From Bacteroidaceae bacterium (GTDB lineage Bacteria > Bacteroidota > Bacteroidia > Bacteroidales > Bacteroidaceae), in NCBI GenBank assembly GCA_017453465.1, contig JAFTEV010000082.1, positions 1-58,750 of the forward strand: a DNA stretch of 58,750 bases, written 5' to 3'. Shown one piece after another: positions 6,541-53,409 of this stretch. Each line of letters starts with the position of its first letter. The first letter of the stretch is position 1. The notes beneath the pieces were generated by a model. It was not told the DNA's origin. It did no database searches and saw only the letters and a program-made list of their open reading frames with translations. The position numbers were made by a program, and so were the translations under genes.

Positions 6541-7476
6541 ATGCAACGATACAACGAATTTGGCCCTTGGCTCAGCGGCTGGCTGGGCTGCAAGGCACAG
6601 AAGATATCCATCAATGCGGGCTTCACCTGCCCCAACAGGGACGGCACCGTGGGACTGGGCGGCTGCACCTACTGCAACAACCAGACCTTCAATCCGACCT
6701 ATTGCGAAACCCGGAAGAGCATCACGCAGCAGCTGGAGGAAGGCAAGAAGTTTTTCGCCCGCAAATATCCCACGATGAAATACTTGGCTTATTTTCAAGC
6801 ATACACCAACACCTACGGCTCGCTCGACACATTGATGGCCAAGTATGAAGAGGCTCTCGCCGTCAGCGACGTGGTGGGACTCGTCATCGGCACCCGTCCC
6901 GACTGTATGCCCGACAGCCTGCTCGACCACCTGGAACAACTCAGCAGGGACTGCCACATCCTTGTGGAATACGGCGTAGAGTCCATCTACGACACCACCC
7001 TACAGCGCATCAACCGAGGCCACACCCATGCGCAGACCGCAGAGGCCATACGGCGCACAGCCCTGCGAGGCATCCCCGTCGGTGCTCACATCATTCTGGG
7101 ATTTCCGGGAGAAAGCAAAGAAATGATTCTCAACGAAGCTGCCGAACTTTCAGCCCTGCCGCTCACCACCCTCAAACTGCACCAGCTACAGCTCATCAAA
7201 GGCACACGCATGGCAGAAGAATATGCGCAGTGTCCCGCAGACTTCCCCCGCTTCTCGGTTGACGAATACATCGACCTCGTCATTGACTTCATCGTCCGCT
7301 TGCGTCCCAGTATGGTTCTGGAACGATTTGTTTCCCAGTCGCCTGCATCCCTGCTTGCCACGCCGGGATGGGGACTGAAGAACTATGAATTCACAGCGAA
7401 ACTCCGCCAACGCATGGACGAAAGAAATGTGTGGCAGGGATGCCGCTGGAGTGGGACTGCATTGCCAGCCGAGTAG
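6541..7476 (+). CDS. Radical SAM protein, TIGR01212/YhcC family
   Basis: A 311-residue radical S-adenosylmethionine protein. The N-terminal signature of this family, CPNRDGTVGLGGCTYCNN, provides the cluster cysteines in the pattern Cx(n)CxxC, preceded by KISINAGFTCP. Further on are YFQAYTNTYG, VIGTRPDC, VEYGVES and GAHIILGFPGE, typical of the TIM-barrel core. A role in tRNA modification has been suggested for YhcC-like proteins, but the reaction is not established. The start is set by the promoter at 6500-6507. The stop codon lies inside the first unit of a 22-bp repeat array, so the array begins exactly at the gene end. Confidence 0.9.
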   Translation: MQRYNEFGPWLSGWLGCKAQKISINAGFTCPNRDGTVGLGGCTYCNNQTFNPTYCETRKSITQQLEEGKKFFARKYPTMKYLAYFQAYTNTYGSLDTLMAKYEEALAVSDVVGLVIGTRPDCMPDSLLDHLEQLSRDCHILVEYGVESIYDTTLQRINRGHTHAQTAEAIRRTALRGIPVGAHIILGFPGESKEMILNEAAELSALPLTTLKLHQLQLIKGTRMAEEYAQCPADFPRFSVDEYIDLVIDFIVRLRPSMVLERFVSQSPASLLATPGWGLKNYEFTAKLRQRMDERNVWQGCRWSGTALPAE

Positions 7477-7626
7477 CACAGTTCTCCCACTTCCGTGGCA
7501 CAGTTCTCCCACTGCGGTAGCACAGTTCTCCCGTTGCGGCGAGACAGTTCTCCCGCTACGGCGGCACTGCTTTCCCACCGCAACAGCACAGTTCTCCTGC
7601 CGCAGCAGCAGAGTTCTTTCACCCAA
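7473..7626. repeat. Seven tandem 22-bp units
   Basis: Seven consecutive, degenerate 22-bp units fill 7473-7626 without gaps, starting at 7473, 7495, 7517, 7539, 7561, 7583 and 7605. The shared core is CACAGTTCTCCC and the ends vary (CACTTCC, CACTGCG, CGTTGCG and so on). Units 1-4 are closest to each other and units 5-7 have diverged. The array begins at the stop codon of the radical SAM gene. It shows no spacer structure and no plausible reading frame, because 22 is not a multiple of three. Confidence 0.9.
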
Positions 7627-7695
7627 AAAACACTGTGAAACGGGTCCGTGAGACGCTTTTCGGCATTTTTTGTTAGTTTTTTCACAATAAAATCG

Positions 7696-7703
7696 TACCT
7701 TTG
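7696..7703 (+). promoter_or_regulatory. -7 element for cca
   Basis: TACCTTTG lies 27 nt before the cca start codon and matches TAnnTTTG. The nearest TTG is at a poor 23-nt spacing, so the -33 element is weak or absent. Confidence 0.6.
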
Positions 7704-7730
7704 CACGCTTAGAATCTTAAAAAAGTGCAG

Positions 7731-9185
7731 ATGAAACAACTGACACACGAAGAAATACTGCAAGCACTGGACCACCCCGTCTTCAAGATGATTAGCGAAA
7801 CAGCCGACAGGTTGCAGCTGGAATGCTACGTGATTGGTGGCTGGGTGCGCGACCTATTGCTGGGCCGCCCATCCAAGGACATCGACGTGGTGGTAGTAGG
7901 CAACGGGGTAGAGCGACCAGGCATTGTCATTGCCGAAGCAATGAAGTCGAAGCTGGGTGGCAAAGCAAACATTGCCATCTACAGGAACTTTGGCACAGCA
8001 CAACTGAAGTACAACCACCTGGAGGTGGAATTTGTGGGAGCACGCCGCGAAAGCTATGACCGCAACTCGCGAAAGCCCATCACCGAGGACGGCACACTGG
8101 AAGAAGACCAGAACCGCAGGGACTTCACCATCAACGCCATGGCTCTGTGCCTGAACCAGCAGCGTTTTGGCGAACTGGTTGACCCCTTCAACGGACTGTA
8201 CGACCTGGAGGACGGCATCATCGCCACCCCACTCGACCCCGACATCACGTTCAGCGACGACCCGCTGCGCATGATGCGCTGCATCCGTTTCGCCACACAG
8301 CTGAACTTCTACATTGAGGACGAGACTTTCCAGGCACTGGAACGCAACAAGGAGCGCATCAAAATCATCAGCGAAGAACGCATAGCCGACGAGCTGAACA
8401 AAATCATCCTTTCGCCCGTTCCCTCCAAGGGATTCATCGACCTGGACCGCTGCGGACTGCTGGAACTCATCTTCCCCGAACTGGCAGCCCTGCAGGGCGT
8501 GGAGACCCGCAACGGCAAGGCGCACAAGGACAACTTTTACCACACACTGGAGGTGCTCGACAATGTGGCCCGGATGCAGTCTGCCCCGTCCCTGTGGCTA
8601 CGCTGGGCTGCCCTGCTCCACGACATCGGCAAACCCAAGTCGAAGCGTTGGGATCCGCTGCTGGGCTGGACCTTCCACAACCACAACAACATTGGCGCAA
8701 AGATGATACCCGGCATTTTCCGCCGGATGAAACTGCCTACAAACGAGAAGATGAAGTATGTGCAGAAACTGGTGGAACTGCACATGCGCCCCATCGTCAT
8801 AGCCGACGAGGAGGTGACAGACAGTGCCGTGCGCCGCTTGCTGTTTGAAGCCGGCGACGACATTGATGACCTGATGCTGCTTTGCACAGCCGATATCACG
8901 TCGAAGAACGAGGAGAAGAAGCGCAGATTCCGACAAAACTTTGAACTCGTCAGGCACAAGCTGGTGGAAATCGAAGAGAAAGACCGCATCCGCAACTTCC
9001 AGCCCCCAGTCAGCGGCGAGGACATCATGGCGATGTTTGGACTGCCACCCTGCCGCGAAGTGGGCACACTGAAAAGCAGAATTAAAGATGCCATTCTCGA
9101 CGGCGAAATACCCAACGAATACCAAGCCGCCAGGGATTTGTTGATTGCCGAAGCAGAAAAAATCGGGCTAAGCATCCGGGAATAA
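7731..9185 (+). CDS. cca: CCA tRNA nucleotidyltransferase with HD domain
   Basis: Adds or repairs the 3' CCA end of tRNA in the cytoplasm. Residues 36-52 carry the class II nucleotidyltransferase motif (GGWVRDLLLG then DID), with catalytic aspartates D50 and D52. The RRDFTINAMA and DPLRMMRCIRFA motifs of the head/neck region follow. Around H297-D298 (LLHDIGKP) there is an HD phosphohydrolase domain, which may process 2',3'-cyclic phosphates on damaged tRNA ends. At 484 aa it fits the HD-containing Bacteroidetes form. ATG 7731 is preferred to the GTG at 7725. It could be a poly(A) polymerase paralogue, but the C-terminal HD makes Cca the better name. Confidence 0.93.
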   Translation: MKQLTHEEILQALDHPVFKMISETADRLQLECYVIGGWVRDLLLGRPSKDIDVVVVGNGVERPGIVIAEAMKSKLGGKANIAIYRNFGTAQLKYNHLEVEFVGARRESYDRNSRKPITEDGTLEEDQNRRDFTINAMALCLNQQRFGELVDPFNGLYDLEDGIIATPLDPDITFSDDPLRMMRCIRFATQLNFYIEDETFQALERNKERIKIISEERIADELNKIILSPVPSKGFIDLDRCGLLELIFPELAALQGVETRNGKAHKDNFYHTLEVLDNVARMQSAPSLWLRWAALLHDIGKPKSKRWDPLLGWTFHNHNNIGAKMIPGIFRRMKLPTNEKMKYVQKLVELHMRPIVIADEEVTDSAVRRLLFEAGDDIDDLMLLCTADITSKNEEKKRRFRQNFELVRHKLVEIEEKDRIRNFQPPVSGEDIMAMFGLPPCREVGTLKSRIKDAILDGEIPNEYQAARDLLIAEAEKIGLSIRE

Positions 9186-9197
9186 GCCAAAAATACT

Positions 9198-9205
9198 TAT
9201 CTTTG
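9198..9205 (+). promoter_or_regulatory. -7 element for the GH105 gene
   Basis: TATCTTTG, 61 nt before the start codon and right after the cca stop. It fits TAnnTTTG, without a clear -33 TTG. Confidence 0.5.
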
Positions 9206-9266
9206 CCCCCCATAAAACCCTCTTTCAACCCTAATTGCAAAATCATTTCAATCCTAACCAATCATT

Positions 9267-10382
9267 ATGAAAGCACTACTTACCCTTGCACTCGGCGCGT
9301 CCCTGCTGACACAGACCGCCATAGCACAAACCAGGCAGGAGGTTGTCTCTGCCATCGAGAAAGTGAACGACTACTGGCAGTCGCACAATGCAGCCACGTG
9401 TCGCGGATTCTGGGACAATGCCGCCTACTTCACTGGAAACCAAGCCGTCTATGAACTCACTGGCAAGCAGCAATATCTGGACTACGCCGTGGAGTGGGCT
9501 GAATACAACAACTGGAAAGGAGCCACACAGCGCGACAAGTCGAAGTGGTGCTACCAGACTTACGGCGAAGGCATGGACTTCGTGCTCTTTGCCGACTGGC
9601 AGATTTGCTTTCAGGTCTATATTGACCTGTACAAACTGGAACACCGTGCAGAGCGGCTGGAACGCTGCCTGGAAGTGATGTGCTACGAGGCCAGCACCTC
9701 AGCCAAGGACTACTGGTGGTGGGCCGACGCACTCTACATGGGTATGCCCATCTTCTCGAAACTCTACAGTGTGACCCACGACCAGAAGTTGCTCGACAAG
9801 CAGTATGAATGTTTCCGCTGGACCGACAGCTTGCTTTTCGACACCGAGGCACAACTCTACTACCGCGACGGCAAGTATGTCTATCCCAAGGTGAAGACTG
9901 CATGTAACGGGGGCAAGAGCTTCTGGGCACGCGGTGCCGGCTGGGTGTTGGCAGGACTGGCCAAGGTGTTGCAGGACCTGCCCAAGGACTGCAAGTACCG
10001 CGCATTCTATCTGGACCGCTTCAAGAAACTGGCTGCCGGCGTGAAGGCTTGTCAGCAAGAGGGTGGCTACTGGAGCCGCTCTATGCTCTGCGAGGCCGAT
10101 GCGCCGGGCTATGAAACCAGCGGAACGGCATTTTTTACCTACGGCATTCTGTGGGGAGTGAACAACGGGATTTTGCCAGCAAAGGATTATCAAAACTGCA
10201 TTGATAAGGCATGGAACTATCTTTACACCAAAGCCTTGCAGCCAGACGGCAGCATCGGCTTTGTGCAGCCCATCGGCGAAAAGCCAGACCCCACACGCAC
10301 CGTGGACGCACACTCGCAAGCCCCATTTGGCACAGGTGCGTGGTTGCTTGCAGCTTGTGAATACAGTAAATACATAAAATAA
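9267..10382 (+). CDS. Secreted unsaturated rhamnogalacturonyl hydrolase-like GH105
   Basis: A 371-residue glycoside hydrolase of family 105 (YteR/YesR relatives), (alpha/alpha)6-barrel enzymes. They hydrolyse the unsaturated uronyl group left by polysaccharide lyases, mainly on pectin rhamnogalacturonan. A cleavable signal peptide is clear (MKALLTLALGASLLTQTAIAQ), so it acts in the periplasm or outside. Family marks are the WWWADALYMGMP segment, with the aspartate expected to be catalytic, and FWARGAGWVLAGL. No SusC/SusD pair, lyase or transporter is nearby, so it is not in a classical utilisation locus. It is followed 20 nt later by sppA and is probably co-transcribed with it. Confidence 0.88.
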   Translation: MKALLTLALGASLLTQTAIAQTRQEVVSAIEKVNDYWQSHNAATCRGFWDNAAYFTGNQAVYELTGKQQYLDYAVEWAEYNNWKGATQRDKSKWCYQTYGEGMDFVLFADWQICFQVYIDLYKLEHRAERLERCLEVMCYEASTSAKDYWWWADALYMGMPIFSKLYSVTHDQKLLDKQYECFRWTDSLLFDTEAQLYYRDGKYVYPKVKTACNGGKSFWARGAGWVLAGLAKVLQDLPKDCKYRAFYLDRFKKLAAGVKACQQEGGYWSRSMLCEADAPGYETSGTAFFTYGILWGVNNGILPAKDYQNCIDKAWNYLYTKALQPDGSIGFVQPIGEKPDPTRTVDAHSQAPFGTGAWLLAACEYSKYIK

Positions 10383-10402
10383 GTTCATCAGTCTTAAACA
10401 CA

Positions 10403-12202
10403 ATGAAACAGTTTCTGAAATACGTATTTGCCACAGTTGTTGGCATTATCATCGTGAGCGTGGTATTCATGTTCTTTGCCATTTCGACCGTCATTGGCAT
10501 GGCCAGCATGAAGTCTGCAAACACCACGGTAGAGGACAACACGGTGCTGGTCATCAAGATGGAAGGTTCCATGGACGAAAGAGTGGAAGACAATCCACTG
10601 GGCTTTCTGCTGGGCAACTCCCTCGCCGAGCAGCAGGGCCTGAGTGCCATCCTGAAGGCCATAGACCGAGCCAAGAACGAAGACAAAGTAAAGGGCATCT
10701 ACATTGAGGCTGGCTCCTTCATGGGAGCGGCTCCTGCCATGTTGCAGGAAATTCGCAATGCGCTGGCCGACTTCAAGAAGACCAAGAAGTTCATCGTGAG
10801 CTACGGCGACATCTACACACAGGGCACCTACTACCTGAGCAGTGTGGCCGACTCGGTCATCATCAATCCGCAAGGCATGATTGACTGGCACGGCATGGCC
10901 ATGCAGACCATGTACTACAAGGACTTGCTTGAAAAGGTGGGCGTAAAGATGCAGGTGTTCAAGGTGGGTACTTACAAGAGTGCCGTAGAGCCTTTCCTGC
11001 TGAACGACATGAGCGAAGCCAACCGCGAGCAACTGAATGTAATCGCCAAGGAGATTTGGGGCAACATGGTGGCCGATGTAAGCAAAAGCCGCAACATCAC
11101 GGCTCAGCAGCTGAATGTGCTGGCCGATTCCTGCATGACCTTTGCTTCTGCCACAGAATACAAGAAAGCCAAGCTGGTTGACAAACTGGCCTACAGCGAC
11201 GAAGTGCCAAGCATCATCTGCAACATGATGAAGGGCGTGGACAACCCCGACGACTACAAGACCATCACTGTGAACGAACTGGCATCCATCGCACAGAGCG
11301 AACCCAAGGGCACCAGCGGGAACATCATCGCCGTGTATTACGCCTACGGTGACATCGTGCAGGAATCATCGAGCGGATTTGGCGGCTTGAACGGCGACCA
11401 CGAAATTGTGGGCAAGACCGTCATCAAGGATTTACAGGAACTGGCCGAGGATGATGACGTGAAGGCAGTGGTGCTCCGCGTCAACTCTGGTGGCGGTAGT
11501 GCATACGCCAGCGAACAGATTTGGCACCAGGTAATGAACATCAAGCAGAAGAAACCCATCATCGTGAGCATGGGAGGCTATGCGGCCAGCGGCGGCTACT
11601 ACATCAGCTGTGCAGCCGACTGGATTGTGGCCGAACCCACAACACTGACGGGGTCGATTGGAATCTTTGGCATGTTCCCCGAAGCCAGCGAACTGATGAA
11701 CAAGAAACTGGGCCTGCACGTGGCCACAGTGAAGACCAACAAATATGCCGACCTGGGGCTGAGCATGGCGCGTCCGTTCAACGAAAGCGAAAGTGCCATC
11801 ATTCAGCGTTACATCAACAATGGCTACGAGTTGTTCACCAAACGCTGTGCCGATGGCCGAAAGATGAAGCAGAACGACATCAAGGCCATTGCCGAAGGAC
11901 GGGTGTGGACTGGTGTGCACGCCAAGCAACTGGGACTGGTTGACCAGCTGGGCAGTCTGCAAGACGCCATCAATGTTGCCGAGAAACGGGCCAAGGTGAA
12001 AGAATACAGCATCATGGAATATCCCAACAGCAGTTCACTCCTGGACAACCTGCTGGAGGAAGTCAGTGGCAACAGTTATGCTGACGGGCAGATGAAGGCT
12101 GCACTCGGAGAATACTATGACCTGTTTGGCCAGCTGAAAAACATCCACTCGAAAACAGGCATCCAAGCAAGCCTGCCCTATTATCTGAGATTTAGTCTGT
12201 AA
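10403..12202 (+). CDS. sppA: Signal peptide peptidase SppA, 67K type
   Basis: A membrane-anchored serine protease that degrades cleaved signal peptides. A transmembrane helix occupies residues ~8-32. Two tandem ClpP-like S49 domains follow, as in the E. coli 67K form (599 aa here, 618 in E. coli). The general-base lysine lies in FKVGTYKSAVEPF in the first domain and the nucleophilic serine in TLTGSIGIFG in the second, which is the two-domain division of the Ser-Lys dyad known for SppA. MGGYAASGGYYIS is also conserved. It sits between GH105 and lpxK with 17-20 nt gaps. Confidence 0.96.
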   Translation: MKQFLKYVFATVVGIIIVSVVFMFFAISTVIGMASMKSANTTVEDNTVLVIKMEGSMDERVEDNPLGFLLGNSLAEQQGLSAILKAIDRAKNEDKVKGIYIEAGSFMGAAPAMLQEIRNALADFKKTKKFIVSYGDIYTQGTYYLSSVADSVIINPQGMIDWHGMAMQTMYYKDLLEKVGVKMQVFKVGTYKSAVEPFLLNDMSEANREQLNVIAKEIWGNMVADVSKSRNITAQQLNVLADSCMTFASATEYKKAKLVDKLAYSDEVPSIICNMMKGVDNPDDYKTITVNELASIAQSEPKGTSGNIIAVYYAYGDIVQESSSGFGGLNGDHEIVGKTVIKDLQELAEDDDVKAVVLRVNSGGGSAYASEQIWHQVMNIKQKKPIIVSMGGYAASGGYYISCAADWIVAEPTTLTGSIGIFGMFPEASELMNKKLGLHVATVKTNKYADLGLSMARPFNESESAIIQRYINNGYELFTKRCADGRKMKQNDIKAIAEGRVWTGVHAKQLGLVDQLGSLQDAINVAEKRAKVKEYSIMEYPNSSSLLDNLLEEVSGNSYADGQMKAALGEYYDLFGQLKNIHSKTGIQASLPYYLRFSL

Positions 12203-12219
12203 AGAAAACCCAGGGAACC

Positions 12220-13266
12220 ATGGAAGGCGACCACATCAAGACCTATCCGCTGTTGGCCCCGCTCTCGTGGCTATATGGTGCAGGAGTCATGTTTCGCAAC
12301 ATGCTCTTCGATTGTGGTGTGCTCCACTCCCGAAGTTTCGATGTGCCCATCATCTGTGTAGGCAACTTGACCGTGGGCGGAACAGGCAAAACGCCGCACA
12401 CGGAATACCTCATCAGACTGCTGAGCCAGAACTGTCAGGTGGCTGTGCTGTCGAGAGGTTACAAGCGCAAGTCCAGTGGATTCGTGCTGGCACAGGCCGA
12501 CACGCCTATGCGGGAAATAGGCGACGAGCCGTTCCAGATGAAGCAGAAGTTTCCGCAGATTCACATGGCCGTGGACAAGGACCGATGTCATGGCATCGAA
12601 AAGCTCTGCCAGCCCAATGTCACCCCTATGACAGACGTGGTTTTGCTGGACGACGCTTATCAACATCGGTATGTGAAGCCAGGCTTGAACATCTTGCTGA
12701 TGGACTACCACCGACTGATTTACTTTGACATGCTGTTGCCCGCTGGCAAACTGCGCGAACCCCTGTCGGGGAAAGACCGAGCCGACATTGTCATTGTGAC
12801 GAAGTGCCCCACCTACATCACCCCGATGGACATGCGGGGCATAGAGCGCACACTGGGATTGCAGCCCTGGCAGAAACTATTCTTTTCCACCTACAAATAC
12901 CCCGACACATTGGGAGAGGTGGGCGAGAATCCGTTGCTGGTCACGGGCATAGCTTCGCCCAAGCAGATAGAGTACGACCTGAAGAAAATCATACCACACT
13001 TTGAAGTGATGGCCTTCCCAGACCACCACCAGTTTACACGAAAGGACATTGAGCGCATCAAGAAACGTGCCCAGGGCAGAACCATCTTGACAACGGAAAA
13101 GGATGCCACACGCATGACAGGCATAGAGGTCAAGACCATCCCCGTGGAAGTAGTTTTTATAGGAAATAACAAACAAGAAGAATTTAATCAAACCATCTTA
13201 AGCTATGTACGAAAAAATAAAAGAAACAGCTGCATTCCTGAAAGAAAGAATGCACACAAAGCCTGA
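12220..13266 (+). CDS. lpxK: Tetraacyldisaccharide 4'-kinase (lipid A synthesis)
   Basis: LpxK phosphorylates the 4' position of the tetraacyldisaccharide precursor of lipid A at the inner face of the inner membrane. The N-terminal hydrophobic anchor (LLAPLSWLYGAGVMFRN) is followed by the P-loop VGNLTVGGTGKTPHTEYL. The family motifs LSRGYKRKSSGF, DEPFQM and LLDDAYQHR are present, the last with the conserved Asp near the P-loop. The length (348 aa) is normal. Its last 62 nt overlap the start of the purine nucleoside phosphorylase gene in another frame, so its C-terminal 20 residues and the PNP N terminus are encoded by the same DNA. Confidence 0.96.
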   Translation: MEGDHIKTYPLLAPLSWLYGAGVMFRNMLFDCGVLHSRSFDVPIICVGNLTVGGTGKTPHTEYLIRLLSQNCQVAVLSRGYKRKSSGFVLAQADTPMREIGDEPFQMKQKFPQIHMAVDKDRCHGIEKLCQPNVTPMTDVVLLDDAYQHRYVKPGLNILLMDYHRLIYFDMLLPAGKLREPLSGKDRADIVIVTKCPTYITPMDMRGIERTLGLQPWQKLFFSTYKYPDTLGEVGENPLLVTGIASPKQIEYDLKKIIPHFEVMAFPDHHQFTRKDIERIKKRAQGRTILTTEKDATRMTGIEVKTIPVEVVFIGNNKQEEFNQTILSYVRKNKRNSCIPERKNAHKA

Positions 13267-14014
13267 AACGGCCATCATCTTGGGGTCGGGATTAGGAAAA
13301 CTTGTGGACGACATAAACATCGAAAAAGAAATACCCTACTCCGAGATACCCCACATGCCAGTATCTACCGTGGAGGGACACGCTGGCAAACTGCTGTTCG
13401 GCAAGCTGGGCGGAAAGGACATCATGGCAATGGAGGGACGCTTCCACTACTACGAAGGGTACTCCATGAAGGAAGTGACATTCCCCATCCGCGTAATGTA
13501 TGAACTGGGCATCAAGAACCTCATTGTCAGCAATGCTGCTGGCGGCATGAACCCTGCATTCAAAGTGGGCGACCTGATGGTCATTGAAGACCACATCAAC
13601 AGTTTCCCTGAGAATCCGCTCCGTGGCAAGAACTTCCCGACCGGGCCACGCTTCCCTTCCATGCACGAGGCTTACGACAAGAACTTCATCCGCATTGTGG
13701 AAGAAGCCGCCAACAGACTGGGCATCAAGATTCAGAAAGGTGTATATGTGGGCACAGCAGGCCCCACGTTTGAGACTCCGGCAGAATACCGTATGTTCAA
13801 GGGCTGGGGAGGCGACGCAGTGGGCATGAGCACCGTGCCCGAAGTCATCGTAGCCGTGCACTGCGGCATCAAGGTCTTCGGCATGAGCGTCATTACCGAC
13901 CTGGGAGGCTTTGAAGTTCCCATGAAGGTGAGCCACGAAGAGGTGCAAGAGGCTGCAAACAATGCACAGCCCAAGATGACAGCACTGATGAAAGAACTTA
14001 TTAAGCAAATATAA
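13205..14014 (+). CDS. punA: Purine nucleoside phosphorylase (PNP-I type)
   Basis: Reversibly phosphorolyses (deoxy)inosine and guanosine to base and ribose-1-phosphate for purine salvage in the cytoplasm. It belongs to the trimeric mammalian-like class: IILGSGLGKLVD (phosphate-binding), PVSTVEGHAGKL, GRFHYYEGYS, VSNAAGGMNP, GTAGPTFETPAEYRM and the purine-site VGMSTVPEVIVA. ATG 13205 gives a full N terminus (MYEKIKETAAFLKER), so the 62-bp overlap with lpxK is real. It is translationally coupled to thiL through a TAATG junction at 14012-14016. Confidence 0.95.
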   Translation: MYEKIKETAAFLKERMHTKPETAIILGSGLGKLVDDINIEKEIPYSEIPHMPVSTVEGHAGKLLFGKLGGKDIMAMEGRFHYYEGYSMKEVTFPIRVMYELGIKNLIVSNAAGGMNPAFKVGDLMVIEDHINSFPENPLRGKNFPTGPRFPSMHEAYDKNFIRIVEEAANRLGIKIQKGVYVGTAGPTFETPAEYRMFKGWGGDAVGMSTVPEVIVAVHCGIKVFGMSVITDLGGFEVPMKVSHEEVQEAANNAQPKMTALMKELIKQI

Positions 14015-15120
14015 TGGCGAGAACTGAGATTAATACCCTGGGGGAATTTGGTTTGATTGACCATCTGACGAAGGCCATCGAACTGAAGAACCCTGAAACA
14101 AAATACGGCGTAGGCGATGACTGCGCCGTGCTCTCCTACCCTGCCGACAAGGACGTGCTTGTGACCACCGACTTGCTCATGGAGGGCGTGCACTTCGACC
14201 TCACTTATATCACGCTGAAACACCTGGGCTACAAGAGTGCAATCGTGAATCTGAGCGACATCTATGCCATGGGCGGAATGCCCAAGCAGATAACGGTCAG
14301 CCTGGCTCTGAGCAAGCGTTTCTGTGTGGAAGACATGGAGGACTTCTACGAAGGGCTGCGCATTGCTTGCGAACAACACCATGTGGACATCGTGGGCGGT
14401 GACACCACCAGTAGCATGACGGGTCTGGCCATCAGCATCACAGCCATTGGCGAGGTGGACAAAGGCAAGGCCATCTACCGCAACGGAGCCAAGGAGACAG
14501 ACATTGTCTGCGTGAGCGGAAATCTGGGGGCTGCCTATATGGGATTCCAGTTGCTGGAGCGCGAAAAGCAAGTCTATTACAAGCAGATTGAAGAGATAGA
14601 GCGGAAACGCGCCGCTGCCACCGACCCTGCAACCAAAGCACAGCTTGAACAGCAGTTGGCACAGGTGGCTCAGCCCGATTTCTCAGGCAAGGAATACCTG
14701 ATAGAACGTCAGATGCGGCCTGAAGCACGGCGCGACATCATCCTGAAACTACGCGAACACGGCATACAACCCACCGCCATGATGGACATCAGCGACGGAC
14801 TCTCCAGCGAACTGATGCACATTTGCAAACAGAGCAAAGTGGGATGCCGCATCTATGAAGATCGCATCCCTATAGACTACCAGACTGCCGTCATGAGCGA
14901 GGAAATGAACATGAACCTCAGCACAGCTGCACTGAATGGTGGCGAAGACTACGAACTGCTCTTCACCGTCCCCATTGCCGACCACGAAAAGATTGAACAG
15001 ATGGAAGACGTGAAAGAAATAGGCTACATCACCAAGCCCGAACTGGGCCAAATGCTCATCACACGCGACGGCAACGAATTTGCGCTGAAAGCTCAAGGCT
15101 GGAATCCATTAGAATCTTAA
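14014..15120 (+). CDS. thiL: Thiamine-monophosphate kinase with a charged insert
   Basis: ThiL phosphorylates thiamine monophosphate to thiamine diphosphate, the last step of the cofactor pathway. Typical parts are the N-terminal LGEFGLIDHL, GDDCAVL (metal/ATP), TTDLLMEGVHFD, NLSDIYAMGG, GGDTTSS, and the late DISDGLSSEL and NGGEDYELLF. Residues ~185-235 hold a helical, Glu/Lys/Gln-rich insert (YYKQIEEIERKR onward) not found in most ThiL proteins. It raises the length to 368 versus ~325-350. The start codon shares one base with the PNP stop. Confidence 0.95.
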   Translation: MARTEINTLGEFGLIDHLTKAIELKNPETKYGVGDDCAVLSYPADKDVLVTTDLLMEGVHFDLTYITLKHLGYKSAIVNLSDIYAMGGMPKQITVSLALSKRFCVEDMEDFYEGLRIACEQHHVDIVGGDTTSSMTGLAISITAIGEVDKGKAIYRNGAKETDIVCVSGNLGAAYMGFQLLEREKQVYYKQIEEIERKRAAATDPATKAQLEQQLAQVAQPDFSGKEYLIERQMRPEARRDIILKLREHGIQPTAMMDISDGLSSELMHICKQSKVGCRIYEDRIPIDYQTAVMSEEMNMNLSTAALNGGEDYELLFTVPIADHEKIEQMEDVKEIGYITKPELGQMLITRDGNEFALKAQGWNPLES

Positions 15121-15142
15121 CCTTCATAAAAATCAACAGAAA

Positions 15143-16315
15143 ATGAAACACCTACTATTATCCACACTCTTGCTGGCGGCAGCAAGCACGACACAAGCAC
15201 AGTTCATAGACCAGGCGAACATGAACTTGAATCCGAAACCCACATTCGACCGCAACATTCTTAACCACCTCGACATCTCCTTCACCGCAGGCATGACGGG
15301 ACTTGGCTTCGACATTGCCATGCCCATCGGCAACTATGTGCAGGTGAGAACAGGTGGTGTCTTTATGCCACATTTCCAGAAAAACGTCAATTTCGACATT
15401 GAAGTCAGCAAGAACGGAGAGACCCTGACTGGCGCAGAAAAGCAGTCACGATTTGAAAAGATGTCGGCCCTGCTCGAAGGCTTCACAGGCATCAAAGCCA
15501 GCGACCATGTGACCATGGTTGGCCAGGCTCACATGAACCACTGGAAGTTCTTGGTCGATGTGTTCCCCTTCAAGAGCAAAGGCTGGAAGAACCTGCACTT
15601 CACCGCTGGTTTCTATCTCGGCAATTCACAGATAGGAACAGCCAGCAACTCGGCTGAAGACGTGACTTCACTGATGGCTGTCAACATGTACAACCGAATC
15701 CGCAGCGAGGTGCTTGCACTGGAGCCACTCGTAAACGTGGCCATAAAGGGCACAAAGTTCTCGATGGGCATTCCAGAGGAAATGCAGCAGTACTTCATTG
15801 GTAAGCTGGAAGAATACGGCACCATGGGCATGGGCGTTGGCTATTATTCGCATGATGTCTATGCCACAGAAGATATCTACTACGATAAAGATGTCTATAC
15901 TACTTCCGACCTTGATGTGCTCTATTACGACGACCCAGAAACACCAACTCCGACACATAAGAAAGGCGATTTGAAGTACGCCAAGGGGGATGTCATCCAC
16001 AAGAAAGGCGACCCCTACAAGATGTTGCCAGGTGAGGACTGCCAAGTCAGTGCTACAGTGAAGGTAAACAAATTCAAGCCCTATCTGGGCCTCGGCTACG
16101 GGGGAGCCATCACCAAAGATAAGCGCACCAGCATTTCGGTCGATGCGGGTGTACTCTTCTGGGGAGGCACACCCCGCATGGTTACCCATGACGGCACAGA
16201 CCTGATTAACGACATTGAGGGCTTGTCTGGAAAAGTGAAGGACTACGTGAACCTTGTCAAAGGATTCAAAGTCTATCCAGAAATCAGCATCAGACTTACA
16301 CAAAGACTTTTTTAA
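15143..16315 (+). CDS. Predicted outer-membrane beta-barrel protein, unrecognised family
   Basis: 390 residues with a clear signal peptide (MKHLLLSTLLLAAASTTQAQ). Alternating aromatic/hydrophobic strands suggest an OMP-type barrel (LDISFTAGMTGLGFDIAM, YVQVRTGGVFMPHF, FKPYLGLGYGGAI), and the C-terminal strand ends in phenylalanine (SIRLTQRLF), as barrel proteins do. Residues ~240-300 are rich in Tyr/Asp/Lys with short repeats (YYDKDVYT, KKGDLKYAKGD, HKKGDPYK) and look like an exposed loop. No enzymatic motif is visible. It is 22 nt after thiL and is followed by a 22-bp repeat array and a terminator. Confidence 0.7.
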   Translation: MKHLLLSTLLLAAASTTQAQFIDQANMNLNPKPTFDRNILNHLDISFTAGMTGLGFDIAMPIGNYVQVRTGGVFMPHFQKNVNFDIEVSKNGETLTGAEKQSRFEKMSALLEGFTGIKASDHVTMVGQAHMNHWKFLVDVFPFKSKGWKNLHFTAGFYLGNSQIGTASNSAEDVTSLMAVNMYNRIRSEVLALEPLVNVAIKGTKFSMGIPEEMQQYFIGKLEEYGTMGMGVGYYSHDVYATEDIYYDKDVYTTSDLDVLYYDDPETPTPTHKKGDLKYAKGDVIHKKGDPYKMLPGEDCQVSATVKVNKFKPYLGLGYGGAITKDKRTSISVDAGVLFWGGTPRMVTHDGTDLINDIEGLSGKVKDYVNLVKGFKVYPEISIRLTQRLF

Positions 16316-16318
16316 AGA

Positions 16319-16406
16319 GACAAGAACGAAGTGTCGTAACGACAAAAGCGAAGTGACAAAACGAGAAGAACGAAGCGCTGTAACGACAAGAACGAAGTAT
16401 CAAAAA
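16319..16406. repeat. Four tandem 22-bp units
   Basis: Four gapless 22-bp units start at 16319, 16341, 16363 and 16385, with consensus GACAAGAACGAAGTGTCGTAAC. The array starts three bases after the stop of the outer-membrane protein gene and runs into the terminator hairpin at 16404. Its sequence is unrelated to the 22-bp array at 7473, yet the period is the same. Confidence 0.9.
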
Positions 16407-19613: not shown

Positions 19614-22600
19614 TTACTTCTTGGCTACGTAGTACTTGCGAGTAGCAATCTGACCATTGTAGTCAAGAGCAGAGTATGCAACTTCGTAGATGTAACCATC
19701 CTCAAGGTTGAGAGTAACATTCTGGTGAATGCCACCGTTGATAACCTTGTTCATGTTAGCACCCTTGTTAGCCTTCTGGAGAGCAGCGAGGCAGTCGCCG
19801 TTACCTTCCTGAGCTGATTCAGGAGCACCTGTCAAAGAAGCACCGATTGCATATACGTTAGTTACAGCGACATGCTTCTTGAGGCATGGAGTGATAACTT
19901 CTGCAGTGTAAGTAGTTGGGTAAACAGTGATAGTAGAAGCGTCAACAAACTTCACAGCACCACGAGTACCACCAAGCTGAGCAATCTTGTTGCCTTCAAC
20001 GAAGAGAGCGATTGGCTGAACACGGTCGCTGATGTTGTTGATGAAGTTCACAAGCTTACCGTTAACCTTGTCAAGATACTTCTGGATAGTGTTGTCAATC
20101 TTGTTCTCAATGCGAGTCTCGTAAGATTCGAGGTTGCCGAGATATTCATTAACCTTAGTGAAGAGGTCAGCAAGGTCATCAACCAAAACAGCGGTGTTAT
20201 TGAAGTCATAGTTGACATCATAAAGAATGTCTCTTACATCAGCAACGAAGGATACAACAATATACTTCTGGCCATCAATAATCTTTGTTTCGAGAGCATT
20301 ACCATCAGCATCAAGGATTGGATCAATGTCTGTAGTAAGAGCATCAGCCTTCAAGTAAACCACAAACTGACGATTATAAACATTCTCACCATCAACAACA
20401 ATAATATCAATATTTGAAATATCATTGGCTGCCTTGTCTAACATCTTAACGAGTGCATTATCTTTGATGCGTGGATTAACTGTGTTCTTGATAAATTTGT
20501 CAATGCGACGGTTAATTCTATAGATAATGTTCATTACGCTGTAGTAGCCTCTTACATACTGCTCATCCTTTGTGAGGAGCTTCTTTTCGATTGCGTTCCA
20601 GAAGTCTGGAGAGAAGCCAGGAGCCTTCACAGCAGTTGCAGCAACGCCGTAGTTAGAGTAAACGCTGCGAGTTTCGCCATCAGCGTTCTTGTACTCTGCC
20701 TTTACAGCAAGAGCTGGGAGGATGCCGTTGAACTGGCTGTAGAGAGTACCAACGAGCGTAGCAATTGATGGGAATGTACCGCTTACGTCCTTAGTCTTAA
20801 CAGCAGTCTTGGCAGCGCTGAATGCATCCTTGAATGCGTTAGCAATCTTAGTGCGGTCAATCTTCACAGCCACCTTAGAGATGTCAGACTTAGAGAGGTG
20901 AGCATCTGCTGCATAGAAGCCGTTAGATACGGCACGAGTGTAACCGAAAGTGATGAGCTTAGAAGAAGGATCGAGGTTCTTCAGTTCAATACCAGAAGCT
21001 TCATCTTGGCTGTTAACCAGCTTGATAGGAGCATCGCTAAAGTCAACACCTGCAGGGTTGATGGTTACATAAATCTTACCAGCATTGTCTTCAGTATCGC
21101 TGATGAGTGTACCGGCAAAGCCATTAATCTGACCATCAACGCTACCAATCATATCGAGGTCACTCTCAGTCAGCTTAGACATAGCAGTTACAGCCGGGTC
21201 AGCATAGAATGCCTTTTCAGAAGACGGGAACTCATAGCTGTTGTCAGCCTTACCATAGTAAGCAACGAGCACGTTAGAGTTGATACCAGCAGGAATGTTG
21301 AATGTACCGTACATTGGGTTGTAAGTACCCTGAACGATTACACCTGTAATCTGGCTGTTGAGAGCATCAGCAATCTTGTCAACGGCAGTTGTAAGTTCAT
21401 CAATAGCTTTCTTGTTCTCACCGATTGCAGTTGCATTGTCAGCAACGTCTTTCTTCAAGCTTGTAATATCTTCCTTGATACCATCGATTGCTTTGTTCAG
21501 AGCAGTGTTGTAGTCTTCAACCTTAGTGTCGAGGGTTTCAACCTTAGTTTCAAGTGTAGAAACCTTACCCTGAAGTTCAGAGATATTACCTTCAGCATCA
21601 GTCATTTTACCTTCGAGAGTAGAAATCTTGCCTTCAGCTTCGGTCATCTTACCTTCAAGAGTAGAAATCTTGCCTTCAGCATCGGTCATCTTACCCTCGA
21701 GAGTAGAAACCTTGCCTTCAACGATTCCGACCTGACCTTCAAGAGTAGAAACCTTGCCGTCAAGAGTAGTTACCTTACCATCGAGTGTACCAACCTTGCC
21801 GTCAAGAGTCTTAACCTTACCGTCAATAGTTGCGAGCTGACCCTTAAGATCTGCAATCTGACCAGTGATTTCAAGAACCTGAGCTTCGAGGCCAAGAACA
21901 GAAGTAGTCAGACCTGCGATAGCAACATTCTGAGCAGCATCTGCAAGTTTGTAAGCAGCTGTTACGTTAGCGATAGCAGTGTTCAGTTCGTCCTTAGTAG
22001 CGAACTTAGAAAGGTCACCTTCGTAAATCTTCTTGATTTCGATAGTAATCTTAGCGATAAGATCAGAGTAGTCAACTGGTTCACCAGGAACGAGGCTTTC
22101 AACTGTGCCAGTGAGAACACCCAGCTTGTAGAGGATGTCGTGGATAACAGCATCGAGGTCATCAATTCTCTGAGCGTTGTAAGCTGCATTGTTCAGAGCA
22201 GTAGTTGCATCCTTCTGAGCTGCAGTAATATCGCTTCTGAGCTGACCTTCGATTGTAGCAAGGTCTGTCTTTACCTTATTAATAGCTTCAAGAGCCTTGT
22301 CGAACTTCTCGTTTGCAGCCTGTGCAAGGTTGTAAGCGAGGTCTGCCTTAGCTTGAGCAGCCTCAACAGCGGCGTTAACCTTACCCAGTTCTTCTGCCAA
22401 AACAGCCTTAGTTACGAAGTTAGAGAGGTCAAGGTCTTCGATAGCCTGCTGAAGCTTGGCAATGTCAACCTTGTTTTGTGCTACGTCAGACTTGAGTGTA
22501 GAGAGGTCAGATGTAGCTTCCTGCAACTTAGCAATGTCCTTCTGAACTTCTGTGAGCGTGTTCTGAAGAGCATCCTTAGCATCCTTCAGCTCGCGGATAA

Positions 22601-24278
22601 CCTGAGCATCGTTTACAACGTTCTTAGCGATGTTTTCAACATCTTCAGCTGTGAGTGCGCTTGGATAAGGATGAGCAGCAGCCCAGTCAGCAACAACCTT
22701 AGAAGCGATTTCAGCAACCTCTTCCGAAGTCAGAGTTGAGCAAGCGCATTTGGCAGCCTCAATCAGGTTCTTAATCTCAGCAGTTGTAGAATAGTCTTCG
22801 AGAGCATCCTTAACCTTATCATCAATCAGGCTCATCACGTCTGCTGTAGTAGAGTAAGCAGAGAGGTCGCTCTTCTTGAGAACATCCTTGATGGCTTCTG
22901 TGATAAGATTCTGAACTTCAGCCTTTGTCAGACCTTCATTGAAACCTTCGAGAGCCTTAGCAATAGCCTCGTTGATGAGGTTCTTCACAGCGTCTGTAGT
23001 AGAGTACTCAGCAAGAGCAGTCTTCACAGCGTCGTTGATAAGAGCCTTCACGTCGTTAGGAGTAGTGTAAGACTTCAGTTTCTCGTCAACAATCTGGTAC
23101 ACAAGGTTCTTAACCTCTGCTTCAGACAGACCGTCAACACCCTTCAGTGCGTCAGTTACAATCTTGTTTACAAGTTCCTTAACCTCAGACTCAGACAGAC
23201 CATCGGTCTTCAGACCCTTCAGAGCCTCGTTGATGAGGTTGTTAACCTCAGCAGTTGTTGGGTAAGAAGAAAGAGCATCCTTGTTGAGGAGATCCTTGAT
23301 GGCATCGTTGATAGCAAGAGCTACTTCAGCAGCCGACATGCCAGCTGGGTGTGAAGCCTCATACTTCTCAAGAGCGTCCTGGATAGCCTTTGTGACGAGG
23401 AGTTCAGCCTCTGCGGGTGTAATGCCGTCCTTCCATTCAGCCTTAGCAGCAGCGATGGCCTTGTCAATCATGCCCTGAACTTCAGCCTCCGAGAGGTGCT
23501 TGTCAGTTGCAGCATAAGCATTGATAGCCTTGTCAATCAAGCTCTCAATGTATGCCTGAGTTGGGATGTCAGACTTCAGTGCATAGTCAGCAAGAGCCTT
23601 AGTGATGGCAGCTTCGATGAGTTCATTAACCTCATCCTTGTTGAGAATCTGGTGGTTGTAAACCCATTCTGTTACGATAGTCTGAACATCTTCCTTAGAA
23701 AGACTTGGGTGTGCCTTCATGTAGGCATCAACGATTGTCTCAACATCTTCCTTTGTCAGACCAGGATTTGATGTCAGATAGCCTTCAATCAGATCCTTCA
23801 CGTCTTGTTTAGACAAACCAGGATGTGCAGCAGCATAGTCCTTAATCATCTGCTCAACTTCAGCCTTCTGAGCTTCAGAGAGCTTAGCGATTACTTCGTT
23901 GATTGCATTAGTGATAGATGTAGCTACGTCAGATGCAGTCTGATAGGGATTGCCGTTATTAGCCAGTGCAGCTGTAATAGAAGCATCAATCAGAGACTGA
24001 ATACGTTCATCCAGTGCACCGTCAGCGCAAGAGCACTGCTTGATGTTACCCAGAGCCGTGTTGATTGCGTCAATCTGGTCTTGCAGACCCTTAACCTGAG
24101 CAGCCAACAAAGACTTGAGGGAAGCATCCTGTGCATTCAGGGCATCGGTGTAACCGTTGATGAGTTCCTGCCTGTTCTGAGCAAGAGTATCCTCATCGGT
24201 GTCCTTACAAGAAGTCACAAAGCCCGCACTGGAAAGTGCCAGCGCAAGCACGAGCAAGTTTGTAAATTTTCTTCTCAT
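19614..24278 (-). CDS. Giant coiled-coil surface lipoprotein, 1554 aa
   Basis: The signal peptide MRRKFTNLLVLALALSSAG is followed by a lipobox (FVTSC), so the protein is lipid-anchored. Residues ~20-90 are helical. Residues ~90-530 contain more than a dozen imperfect repeats of 25-35 residues built on the pattern xLTKEDVETIVDAYxKAHP or LSEAEVKNLIxEAIKxAL. Residues ~530-800 are long heptad coiled coil. Residues ~805-910 are a strict 7-residue repeat, TLDGKVG then TLEGKMTDAEGKI-type. From ~975 a beta-rich globular region begins (ITGVIVQGTYNPMYGTFNIP), like the domain after coiled coils in Bacteroidales DUF4988-type surface proteins. It ends QIATRKYYVAKK. The layout suggests a stalk carrying a distal domain. 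Function and ligand are unknown. Confidence 0.85.
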   Translation of the reverse strand: MRRKFTNLLVLALALSSAGFVTSCKDTDEDTLAQNRQELINGYTDALNAQDASLKSLLAAQVKGLQDQIDAINTALGNIKQCSCADGALDERIQSLIDASITAALANNGNPYQTASDVATSITNAINEVIAKLSEAQKAEVEQMIKDYAAAHPGLSKQDVKDLIEGYLTSNPGLTKEDVETIVDAYMKAHPSLSKEDVQTIVTEWVYNHQILNKDEVNELIEAAITKALADYALKSDIPTQAYIESLIDKAINAYAATDKHLSEAEVQGMIDKAIAAAKAEWKDGITPAEAELLVTKAIQDALEKYEASHPAGMSAAEVALAINDAIKDLLNKDALSSYPTTAEVNNLINEALKGLKTDGLSESEVKELVNKIVTDALKGVDGLSEAEVKNLVYQIVDEKLKSYTTPNDVKALINDAVKTALAEYSTTDAVKNLINEAIAKALEGFNEGLTKAEVQNLITEAIKDVLKKSDLSAYSTTADVMSLIDDKVKDALEDYSTTAEIKNLIEAAKCACSTLTSEEVAEIASKVVADWAAAHPYPSALTAEDVENIAKNVVNDAQVIRELKDAKDALQNTLTEVQKDIAKLQEATSDLSTLKSDVAQNKVDIAKLQQAIEDLDLSNFVTKAVLAEELGKVNAAVEAAQAKADLAYNLAQAANEKFDKALEAINKVKTDLATIEGQLRSDITAAQKDATTALNNAAYNAQRIDDLDAVIHDILYKLGVLTGTVESLVPGEPVDYSDLIAKITIEIKKIYEGDLSKFATKDELNTAIANVTAAYKLADAAQNVAIAGLTTSVLGLEAQVLEITGQIADLKGQLATIDGKVKTLDGKVGTLDGKVTTLDGKVSTLEGQVGIVEGKVSTLEGKMTDAEGKISTLEGKMTEAEGKISTLEGKMTDAEGNISELQGKVSTLETKVETLDTKVEDYNTALNKAIDGIKEDITSLKKDVADNATAIGENKKAIDELTTAVDKIADALNSQITGVIVQGTYNPMYGTFNIPAGINSNVLVAYYGKADNSYEFPSSEKAFYADPAVTAMSKLTESDLDMIGSVDGQINGFAGTLISDTEDNAGKIYVTINPAGVDFSDAPIKLVNSQDEASGIELKNLDPSSKLITFGYTRAVSNGFYAADAHLSKSDISKVAVKIDRTKIANAFKDAFSAAKTAVKTKDVSGTFPSIATLVGTLYSQFNGILPALAVKAEYKNADGETRSVYSNYGVAATAVKAPGFSPDFWNAIEKKLLTKDEQYVRGYYSVMNIIYRINRRIDKFIKNTVNPRIKDNALVKMLDKAANDISNIDIIVVDGENVYNRQFVVYLKADALTTDIDPILDADGNALETKIIDGQKYIVVSFVADVRDILYDVNYDFNNTAVLVDDLADLFTKVNEYLGNLESYETRIENKIDNTIQKYLDKVNGKLVNFINNISDRVQPIALFVEGNKIAQLGGTRGAVKFVDASTITVYPTTYTAEVITPCLKKHVAVTNVYAIGASLTGAPESAQEGNGDCLAALQKANKGANMNKVINGGIHQNVTLNLEDGYIYEVAYSALDYNGQIATRKYYVAKK

Positions 24279-26810: not shown

Positions 26811-26896
26811 TAGGCAATACGCCGCGCTCGCGTAGGCAATGAAGTGTGTCAGATTGCCTACGCGAGCGCGACGCATTGCCTACACGAGCGAGCACA
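26811..26896. repeat. Palindromic GC-rich repeat with 22-bp period (copy 1)
   Basis: Arms 26811-26840 and 26853-26882 are complementary at 28 of 30 positions, with a 12-nt loop. Within each arm an 8-9 bp word (TAGGCAAT or ATTGCCTAC) recurs after exactly 22 bp (26811/26833 and 26853/26875). The core GCCTACGCGAGCGCG is shared with the element at 45.8 kb. The remaining part of the 26760-27115 gap holds only the terminator below and a stray TATCTTTG at 27073-27080. Confidence 0.9.
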
Positions 26897-45680: not shown

Positions 45681-45788
45681 CTTTTTTTGTACATAAAGCA
45701 AGCCCTCTCCGAGGTCGAGAAAACAGCCCGTGGTGAACTGAACAGCGACGTTTTACGCCCCTCTGTTTTTATTTCTGTTAAAACACAA

Positions 45789-45870
45789 CGCGCTCACGTA
45801 GGCAATGCGTCGCTGCGGCGTAAGCAACAAAGTGGCGCACATTGCCTACGCGAGCGCGACACATTGCCAG
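45789..45870. repeat. Palindromic GC-rich repeat with 22-bp period (copy 2)
   Basis: CGCGCTCACGTAGGCAAT (45789-45806) is complementary, with one mismatch, to 45841-45858. The word TAGGCAAT (45799) recurs as TAAGCAAC at 45821, and ATTGCC recurs at 45841 and 45863, both exactly 22 bp apart. The core GCCTACGCGAGCGCG is identical to the copy at 26853-26870. Between this element and 46162 lie a short coding remnant and a terminator. Confidence 0.88.
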
Positions 45871-45981
45871 CGCAACCCGCTCGGCTTCTTTCTTTTGCAC
45901 TACGGACTGCGAATTTGGGGCACAAAAAGCATGGAAAAACTGTTGATTTTATGCTGTTTGGGATTTTTTAACAATGGGTGA

Positions 45982-51629: not shown

Positions 51630-51713
51630 GAATTACGAAATCCGAAATCCGAAAGGCCGTCCGGATGGTTCGTAATTCGTAACTCGTAATTCGTAATTTG
51701 GATTTCGTAATTC
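51630..51713. repeat. AT-rich inverted repeat in the OmpH-lemA gap
   Basis: GAATTACGAAATCC (51630-51643) is the exact complement of 51700-51713. Between and around the arms the words CGTAATT and GAAATCC recur several times. It could form a long hairpin in the intergenic RNA. Confidence 0.85.
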
Positions 51714-51726
51714 GTAATTAAAAATT

Positions 51727-52298: not shown

Positions 52299-52398
52299 GG
52301 AATGAGGAATGAGGAATTGATACTGAAAAGGCACAGTAACCATTCCTCATTCCCAATTCCTCATTCAAAATTCCTCATTCAAAATTCCTCATTCAAAA
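52299..52398. repeat. AT-rich inverted and direct repeats in the lemA-M48 gap
   Basis: GAATGAGGAATTG (52307-52319) is complementary to 52354-52366. After the second arm the 14-nt unit ATTCCTCATTCAAA repeats in tandem right up to the TTG start of the next gene, so the last repeat supplies its start region. Confidence 0.85.
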
Positions 52399-53409
52399 TT
52401 GCACTACGTCGGCATACAAACCCAAATCGACCGCAACAACAGGAACAGCATCCTGCTGCTGCTCACCTTCCCCTGCATCATCCTGGGCATGATGTGGATA
52501 TTCCTGGCACTGGTGACAGGCTTTGAAACCGTAGGCTACGACGAATACGGCTACTCACAGTCCCAATTCAACGCCGACACCGTCAACGCCAACTGGATCA
52601 CCTGCGCACCCTACGTCATCGGCGGTGTGGGCCTCTGGTTCATCATCGCCTACCTGTTCAACACACGCATGATACAGTCAGCCACAGGAGCACGCCCCCT
52701 CACCCGCAAAGAAAACCCACGCATCTACAACATCGTGGAAAACCTCTGCATCGCCGGCGGCATGGACATGCCCAAAATCAACGTCGTCGACGACCCGCAG
52801 CTCAACGCCTTCGCCTCCGGCATCAACAAAGATTCATACACCGTCACCGTCACCACAGGCATCTGCGACCGACTCACCGACGAAGAACTGGCAGGAGTCA
52901 TAGGCCACGAACTCACCCACATCCGCAACCACGACACCCAGGTACTCATCACCAGCATCATCTTCGTCGGCATCATCAGCACCGTGCTCAGCGCACTCAC
53001 CCAGTTCGTCTATCGCACATTCATCTACGGCGGATTCCGCACCACATCCAGCGACAACAAGAAAGGCAACGGCGGCATCGGTGTCATGGCCACCATCCTC
53101 GTCGCCATCGTCTGCACAGCCCTGGCCTACCTCTTCACCCTGCTCACCCGCTTCGCCATCAGCCGCCGACGCGAATTCATGGCCGACGCAGGCGGAGCCG
53201 AACTCTGCGGCAACCCCCTCGCACTCGCCTCAGCCCTCCGCAAAATCTCCAGCGACCCAGGACTCAGCCACACTGACCGCGACGACGTAGCCCAGCTCTT
53301 CATCATCCACCCCCCGCAGCTGCACCAGTCCTTCCTCAGCAGCCTTGGCTCCCTCTTCGCCACCCACCCCGACACCGCCGAGCGCATCCGCATACTGGAA
53401 CAATTCTAA
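52399..53409 (+). CDS. M48-family zinc metalloprotease (HtpX-like)
   Basis: 336 residues, integral membrane. Two N-terminal helices (~18-40 and ~75-95) precede the protease domain. The zinc motif is IGHELTHIRNHD (HExxH) and the downstream ligand EFMADAGGAEL. A pair of helices lies between them (~190-205 and ~225-250). HtpX-type enzymes degrade misfolded membrane proteins. No ATG exists near the expected start. The TTG at 52399 gives MHYVGIQTQIDRNNRNS, which resembles other family N termini, but an extended start in the repeat cannot be ruled out. The stop shares a TAATG with the next gene. Confidence 0.92.
   Translation: MHYVGIQTQIDRNNRNSILLLLTFPCIILGMMWIFLALVTGFETVGYDEYGYSQSQFNADTVNANWITCAPYVIGGVGLWFIIAYLFNTRMIQSATGARPLTRKENPRIYNIVENLCIAGGMDMPKINVVDDPQLNAFASGINKDSYTVTVTTGICDRLTDEELAGVIGHELTHIRNHDTQVLITSIIFVGIISTVLSALTQFVYRTFIYGGFRTTSSDNKKGNGGIGVMATILVAIVCTALAYLFTLLTRFAISRRREFMADAGGAELCGNPLALASALRKISSDPGLSHTDRDDVAQLFIIHPPQLHQSFLSSLGSLFATHPDTAERIRILEQF

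Follow-up and report, generated by a model that had tools for sequence, protein, structure and literature searches.

Intergenic arrays of unrelated sequence share a period of 22-24 bp in a Bacteroidaceae bacterium and its genus

Arrays in the window

The stretch of DNA analysed here (the window; positions 1 to 58,750 of contig JAFTEV010000082.1, Bacteroidaceae bacterium assembly GCA_017453465.1) carries two direct intergenic repeat arrays and two palindromic elements, whose three unit types share a step of 22 bp without sharing a sequence. These arrays are real and beyond chance, and a common period among unrelated sequences is a genuine feature that is widespread in the genus. Table 1 lists the features, with gene bounds taken from a simple custom gene caller.

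Table 1. Repeat arrays of the window and their neighbouring features.
Feature	Position	Strand	Description
Family A direct array (array 1)	7473-7626	+	Seven 22-bp units, consensus about GTRGCACAGTTCTCCCACTGCG
Array C (array 2)	16319-16406	+	Four 22-bp units, consensus about GACAAGAACGAAGTGTCGTAAC
Family B palindromic element	26811-26882		TAGGCAAT boxes at 26811 and 26833; inverted ATTGCCTA boxes at 26853 and 26875
Degenerate family B element	45799-45870		Boxes at 45799, 45821, 45841 and 45863; two boxes degenerate
Radical SAM protein gene	6541-7476	+	PF04055, PF16199; 3' end adjoins array 1
Poly(A) polymerase / tRNA nucleotidyltransferase-like gene	7731-9185	+	PF01743, PF12627, PF01966; downstream of array 1
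Strong hairpin with T-run	16404-16451		Fold z = -8.18; directly behind array C

The start of array 1 coincides with the stop codon of the radical SAM gene, and its seven units have a mean pairwise identity of 0.68. The gene at 15221-16315 ends 4 bp before array 2, counted from its stop codon, and the four units of this array have an identity of 0.74. An earlier note on this DNA had counted seven units in the one and four in the other, all of 22 bp, and both counts are reproduced. Its description of an exactly 22-bp spacing throughout holds for the direct arrays and the palindrome arms and fails at the palindrome centres, as the box steps of the first family B element are 22, 20 and 22, with 22 inside the arms and 20 over the centre. 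The degenerate element has the same layout. Because the two palindromes belong to a single family, the window offers three independent cases of the period rather than four. The further claim of unrelated sequences stands: when the A, B and C unit consensuses are compared in all rotations, the best fit has 9-10 identical positions out of 22, a level that shuffled units also reach, and the comparison lends no support to shared descent of the three. The hairpin behind array C, flanked by A and T runs and lying before a convergent gene, reads as a two-way intrinsic terminator.

The period in the genome, the genus and the order

The window's genome is a draft of 3.16 Mb, about 85% complete. Self-similarity at fixed lags was scanned over 449 kb of it, comprising the window and 20 stretches of four contigs matched by array 1, a choice of contigs that inflates the density of arrays, not which period is found. 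The intergenic signal has peaks at lag 7 and the multiples of 7 as well as at lags 22 (11 regions), 44 (12) and 66 (5), against 0, 0 and 2 self-similar coding regions at these three lags; locally shuffled, the same 449 kb gives 0 regions at every lag. Nine of the 13 intergenic tandem repeats with a period of 15-40 (multiples of 7 excluded) have a period of 22. Coding repeats are rejected as the source, since neither 22 nor 23 is a multiple of three and no coding region is self-similar at lag 22.

Other genomes were sampled at 16-100 kb each. Thirteen further genomes of the genus (990 kb) contain 32 intergenic tandem repeats within the same limits, of which 9 have a period of 22, 12 of 23 and 5 of 24, placing 26 of 32 at 22-24; gene calls failed on G003, G026 and G051, where nearly all sequence was counted as intergenic, and one of the 32 arrays comes from G003. 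In 400 kb from four other genera of the family there were three arrays of period 15-40, two of them at 22, and 362 kb from four other families likewise gave three, one at 23 and one at 24, so that the trait is rare outside the genus in these small samples. The period of 22-24 bp is a trait of the genus.

Units in the sister species have different sequences, are often palindromes and typically stand three in a row at exactly 22, 23 or 24 bp. A sequence-blind scan for three equally spaced dyads, run on 11 other genus genomes and on the family, order and own-genome samples, returned 5, 3 and 6 genus arrays at 22, 23 and 24 bp (14 in all) against about 0.2 in shuffles. Other steps in the genus account for two arrays at 14, two at 21 and one at 29, while the family samples hold none and the order samples one, at 17. 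A chance origin of the arrays is ruled out by the shuffles of both the lag scan and the dyad scan. The distribution of unit lengths that the earlier note had proposed to plot, drawn here from samples, is thus peaked at 22-24 and not flat, and this peak, the lack of coding regions at lag 22 and the dyad scan give good support to its suggestion that the period has a common cause.

A second class of intergenic repeat is formed by heptamer arrays (TTCGTAA, ATTCCTCATTCAAA and TAATTGTGAATTGTGCATTGT) at 51669-51719, 52342-52400 and 53482-53526 of the window; period 7 is the commonest of all, with 26 arrays in the own-genome sample and 36 in the genus sample. Coding repeats of 21 and 42 bp (7 and 14 residues) lie at 21540-21830 within an open reading frame of 1554 residues (19614-24278, minus strand), whose product may be a coiled-coil or repeat protein.

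Copies and spread of families A, B and C

Array 1, used as a blastn query, has 56 matches at E<=1 in its own genome, which rules out a one-off array. The copies combine a common core near CCACYGCAGTGG with an oriented slot, for example GAGAACTGTG or CAATGCAGTG, and the slot words keep phase modulo 22 in 67 of 67 pairs, including pairs across reversed units (seven classes, with classes of fewer than five word pairs left out). Matches occur in 2 of 61 genomes, the window's own and G004, and family A arrays adjoin the same gene in both genomes in two of three cases examined, with synteny on one side. At such shared positions the order of units differs between the two genomes.

Family B is present in 2 of 45 genus genomes, with 69 copies of TAGGCAAT-12-ATTGCCTA in the window's genome and one in G004; the centre measures 12 bp in every listed pair, with 8-16 allowed. 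Complete four-box elements number 75 in the own genome at up to three mismatches. These elements are not biased towards gene 3' ends, as 2 of 13 lie within 150 bp of one and 6 of 13 lie between divergent genes. Array 2 is single-copy, its search of the own genome returning itself and two 15-base matches at chance level, and C as a dispersed family is ruled out. Beside the near-copy of the 45789 element on contig C63, three 32-base repeats of the TTTATGTCTCGTTTCCTACATCAAACCACAAC type with unique spacers of about 34 bases (L042 13391-13578) look like a short array of clustered regularly interspaced short palindromic repeats (CRISPR).

Exact-step families in sister species

The clearest sister family, named CGGT here and defined by CGGTSTGASTCASACCG, occurs in 12 of 45 genus genomes with up to 106 matches, against 0 for the reversed control pattern. 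Its dyads measure 17 bp, stand three per element and are separated by spacers of 6-7 bp drawn from a small word set in both orientations. The triples have a 24-bp step in G010, G011 and G035 (33, 34 and 28 pattern matches) and a 23-bp step in G007, G020, G141 and RGIG3230. Among the matches listed in GTDB contigs, the motif is present in RUG13218, RUG418, RUG14560, RGIG3223, RGIG3230, RGIG4941, RGIG4883 and Tb.RUG.104, which are metagenome assemblies, several of them stated to come from rumen or reticulum; the contig set may lack assemblies close to the window's genome. All motif-bearing genomes that were looked at are draft assemblies, each in tens to hundreds of contigs. Two further families keep their step to the base: GTACCCSWSGGGTAC (GTACCC) pairs lie at 23 bp in 72 of 72 cases from 9 of 45 genomes (18-29 allowed), and TTCATTAATGAA pairs at 22 bp in 25 of 25 cases from 2 of 45 genomes (16-32 allowed).

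Allowing up to three mismatches over the 42 fixed positions raises the number of CGGT triples only from 33 to 36 in G010 and from 34 to 37 in G011, so there is no tail of decaying copies. When two units were required at the 24-bp step and the third was left free, the third was present in 110 of 112 elements and absent in 2; at its 14 fixed positions it was perfect in 105, with one mismatch in 4 and two in 1, and a fourth unit was found in one of the 112. Across 66 orthologous pairs, which are not independent because some loci are common to several species, the spacers differ at 212 of 897 sites (23.6%), the dyad centres at 61 of 198 (30.8%), positions 5 and 13 at 16.9%, the arms at 19.4% and the flanks at 15-17%, the other dyad positions being fixed by the search. 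The 26 reciprocal pairs of G010 and G011 (up to 5 differences) differ at 23 spacer sites, 4 dyad centres and 2 other dyad positions, with only positions 5, 9 and 13 of the dyad free to differ. A Fisher test that compares the mismatches of the third unit with the spacer differences of orthologs sets two different measures side by side and is indicative at most. In this family the palindromes hardly change at all, against a divergence of 15-24% in the spacers and flanks of orthologous sites.

The nearest gene end is a 3' end for 27 of 35 CGGT elements (0.47 for random placements), and the distance to a 3' end is no more than 150 bp in 26 of the 35 (0.26 for random placements). Many elements have A-runs before and T-runs after the dyads. 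The dyad centres vary often, and of the four changes at centres that separate G010 from G011, three exchange G and C, the pattern that an inversion of dyads in place would leave. The outer arms, which in G140 carry CACTRCCTCAAAAA inward on both sides, recur outward at about 23-24 bp (L186-L205 and other loci), and the phased row may extend past three dyads.

Comparison with known systems

Lambda operator centres are spaced at 23-24 bp. Phage lambda has six 17-bp operators and related phages have three in the right region, with dyads bound by dimers, as set out in sections of PMC4997575. The CGGT family resembles such triple operators in having three dyads of about 17 bp in a row at steps of about two turns. 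It differs in that a single motif recurs about 36 times in a genome, for the most part close to the 3' ends of genes and not at one promoter region, in that several motifs occur per genus, and in that no repressor was found.

Repetitive extragenic palindromic (REP) sequences and the bacterial interspersed mosaic elements (BIME) built from them are described in parts of PMC3733652 as short intergenic palindromes in tens of copies, forming species-specific families, mostly downstream of genes and often clustered; most REP dimer partners lie 20-100 bp apart there. The arrays share with them the short palindromic intergenic repeats, the tens of copies and the species-specific families. The downstream location is found in the CGGT family and is lacking in family B. 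Two REP features were looked for and neither was found. The GTAG or CGTC tag is absent by sequence from the CGGTSTGASTCASACCG, GTACCCSWSGGGTAC and TTCATTAATGAA units; both strings do occur in the common family B unit GCGTCGCGCTCGCGTAG, but inside the predicted stem and not as an unpaired tag. The REP-associated tyrosine transposase (RAYT, a Y1 transposase, PF01797) has 0 matches at E<=0.001 in the window's genome as assembled, which speaks against RAYT-driven REPs, and is matched in 27 of 81 family genomes (a set without G010, G011, G013, G035 and G140). This absence is not decisive, because CGTC REPs without a known transposase are described in the same source (PMC3733652). Also unlike REPs, the step is fixed to the base, and three units are the rule in the CGGT family.

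SlmA sites (GTGAGTACTCAC, about 50) and MatP sites (13 bp, 23 sites) are scattered over the Escherichia coli chromosome and are read by dimers in chromosome or division control, according to portions of PMC3116907. A single palindromic motif dispersed over the chromosome is the common point here, and the GTGA...TCAC half-sites of the CGGT dyad are SlmA-like, which may be coincidence; the sites described here differ in being intergenic and in forming phased rows of three. With their direct repeats at regular intervals the arrays also recall CRISPR arrays and plasmid iterons, the latter being about 17-22 bp. Unlike CRISPR arrays, these have spacers of 5-14 bp from a small word set in either orientation and no long unique spacers, and unlike iterons they are dispersed over the chromosome and not gathered at one origin. 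By analogy, the geometry would be that of lambda operators and the distribution that of REP, SlmA or MatP sites, and the arrays are assigned to none of these systems.

Interpretation and rival explanations

The explanation favoured here, to which an even chance is given, is that each array offers a row of sites to DNA-binding proteins that are dimeric and sequence-specific. One unit would be one site, a dyad of about 12-17 bp that is clean in the sister species and imperfect in the window's A and B, and the spacer would fill the step to 22-24 bp, about two helical turns, so that neighbouring dimers would occupy almost the same side of the helix and be able to touch. The sequence of the spacer would then matter little and the step a great deal. 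Different families, within a genome and between species, would be read by different proteins, related or unrelated, and the shared period without shared sequence would arise because each family answers to its own protein; A, B and C would on this account form one functional class whose bound proteins may cooperate. Since the rows lie between genes, many just 3' of stop codons, a row covered by protein could serve to organise the chromosome, to halt transcripts or to protect them. Of the two causes offered in the earlier note, more support goes to a DNA-binding protein that acts at two-turn spacing, and an amplification mechanism is kept alive by the copying of family B with its flanks.

Several observations weigh against the binding-site explanation. 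No binding protein was found for the arrays. Constraint on the dyads is shown for one sister family alone, and because the search patterns preset most of the fixed palindrome positions, what speaks for conservation is the mismatch tail together with the third unit that was left free. The dyad scan of the window's own genome found nothing at 22 bp and a sole array at 44, from which it follows that the dyads in its arrays are imperfect; clean triple dyads are a feature of the sister species, and the window arrays share their step, not their dyad quality. Many family B boxes are imperfect, with 22 perfect elements and 15 with one mismatch among the 75. A stretch of 199 bp that holds the second family B element (45777-45975) recurs on contig C63 at 93.5% identity, and the first element has 172 bp in common with another B site at 76.7%, so elements of this family have been copied together with their flanks. 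The B elements also fold strongly relative to shuffles (z -7.48 and -5.83), as does one of the two CGGT elements tested (z -5.57), and a site with a single C.C or G.G mismatch can still fold, which leaves room for action as RNA.

Action as RNA, in which transcribed 3' regions would fold into hairpins that end or protect transcripts, is nevertheless improbable. Besides the strong folds just given, it gains from the moderate folding of array 1 (z -3.4 and -3.6 on the two strands), from the preference of CGGT elements for 3' ends and the A- and T-runs around many of them, and from the presence of an identical six-base slot word in both B arms in 20 of 48 elements against 11.8 expected (P 0.007). 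Over all 14 slot positions, however, the B arms match no better than when shuffled (10.52 against 10.35, P 0.15), the folding of array 2 does not exceed that of shuffles (z 0.00), the other CGGT element is weak (z -1.98), and family B lacks a 3' bias. Known RNA families are set aside, as Rfam has no match on the arrays in the nine sources searched, and hairpins have no need of an exact step of 22-24 bp. CGGT positions 5 and 13 are paired in 54 of 116 dyads against 64.8 expected; pairing not above expectation, together with the free dyad centre, fits recognition by a protein better than recognition as a hairpin. We read this as recognition at the DNA level for the CGGT family, with family B left either way.

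An origin as REP-like elements or miniature inverted-repeat transposable elements is on balance unlikely and still a serious rival, owing to the imperfect dyads of the window arrays and the family B copy duplicated with its flanks. Palindromic repeats would be copied between genes by a transposase acting in trans, the step would be part of the element, and copies would be tolerated behind stop codons. The dispersal of A and B in tens of copies, the confinement of B to the window's genome and a single copy in G004, and the 3' location of CGGT elements, which resembles that of REPs as reported in passages of PMC3733652, all agree with it. Against it stand the lack of a PF01797 match, the occurrence of CGGT copies at orthologous places in several species with flanks diverged by 15-19% and almost no decay, and a step common to three unrelated unit types in the window and to many in sister species, which one transposon would not explain. 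Replication slippage, meaning ordinary tandem duplication that favours about two helical turns for mechanical reasons and serves no function, is very improbable. It would suit the single-copy, imperfect array C, the reshuffled units of A arrays at the same gene in two species and the many 7-bp arrays of the genome, but it gives no account of the dispersal of A and B, the palindromic units, the triples of fixed number, the persistence at orthologous sites or the conservation of units over spacers.

A wider and more tentative proposal is made with clearly less confidence. The chromosomes of the genus may bear a kind of site not described before, in which three or more dyads stand in phase at a step of 22, 23 or 24 bp and are recognised by fast-diversifying proteins with one stacking geometry, such that the step is kept while the site sequences turn over between species. 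The role could lie in chromosome organisation, division control or transcript ends, comparable to that of SlmA, MatP or BIME sites in other bacteria. Among the papers listed by searches of open-licence PubMed Central text, no title or displayed abstract describes these elements, which is weak evidence of novelty, and the terms 22-bp, 22 bp and DR22 were not found in a Porphyromonas gingivalis repeat paper (PMC5771137).

Significance

Dispersed intergenic repeats are usually sorted by sequence, and the property conserved here is a geometry, a two-turn step kept to the base although the sequences differ between families and between species. If the rows are bound by protein, a three-dyad row used as bait would offer a direct route to new chromosome-binding proteins in rumen Prevotellaceae-like bacteria. 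The families would also provide a natural series in which to follow the joint change of DNA-binding specificity and the sites it acts on, and equally spaced dyads would serve as a rule for finding such systems without a known sequence.

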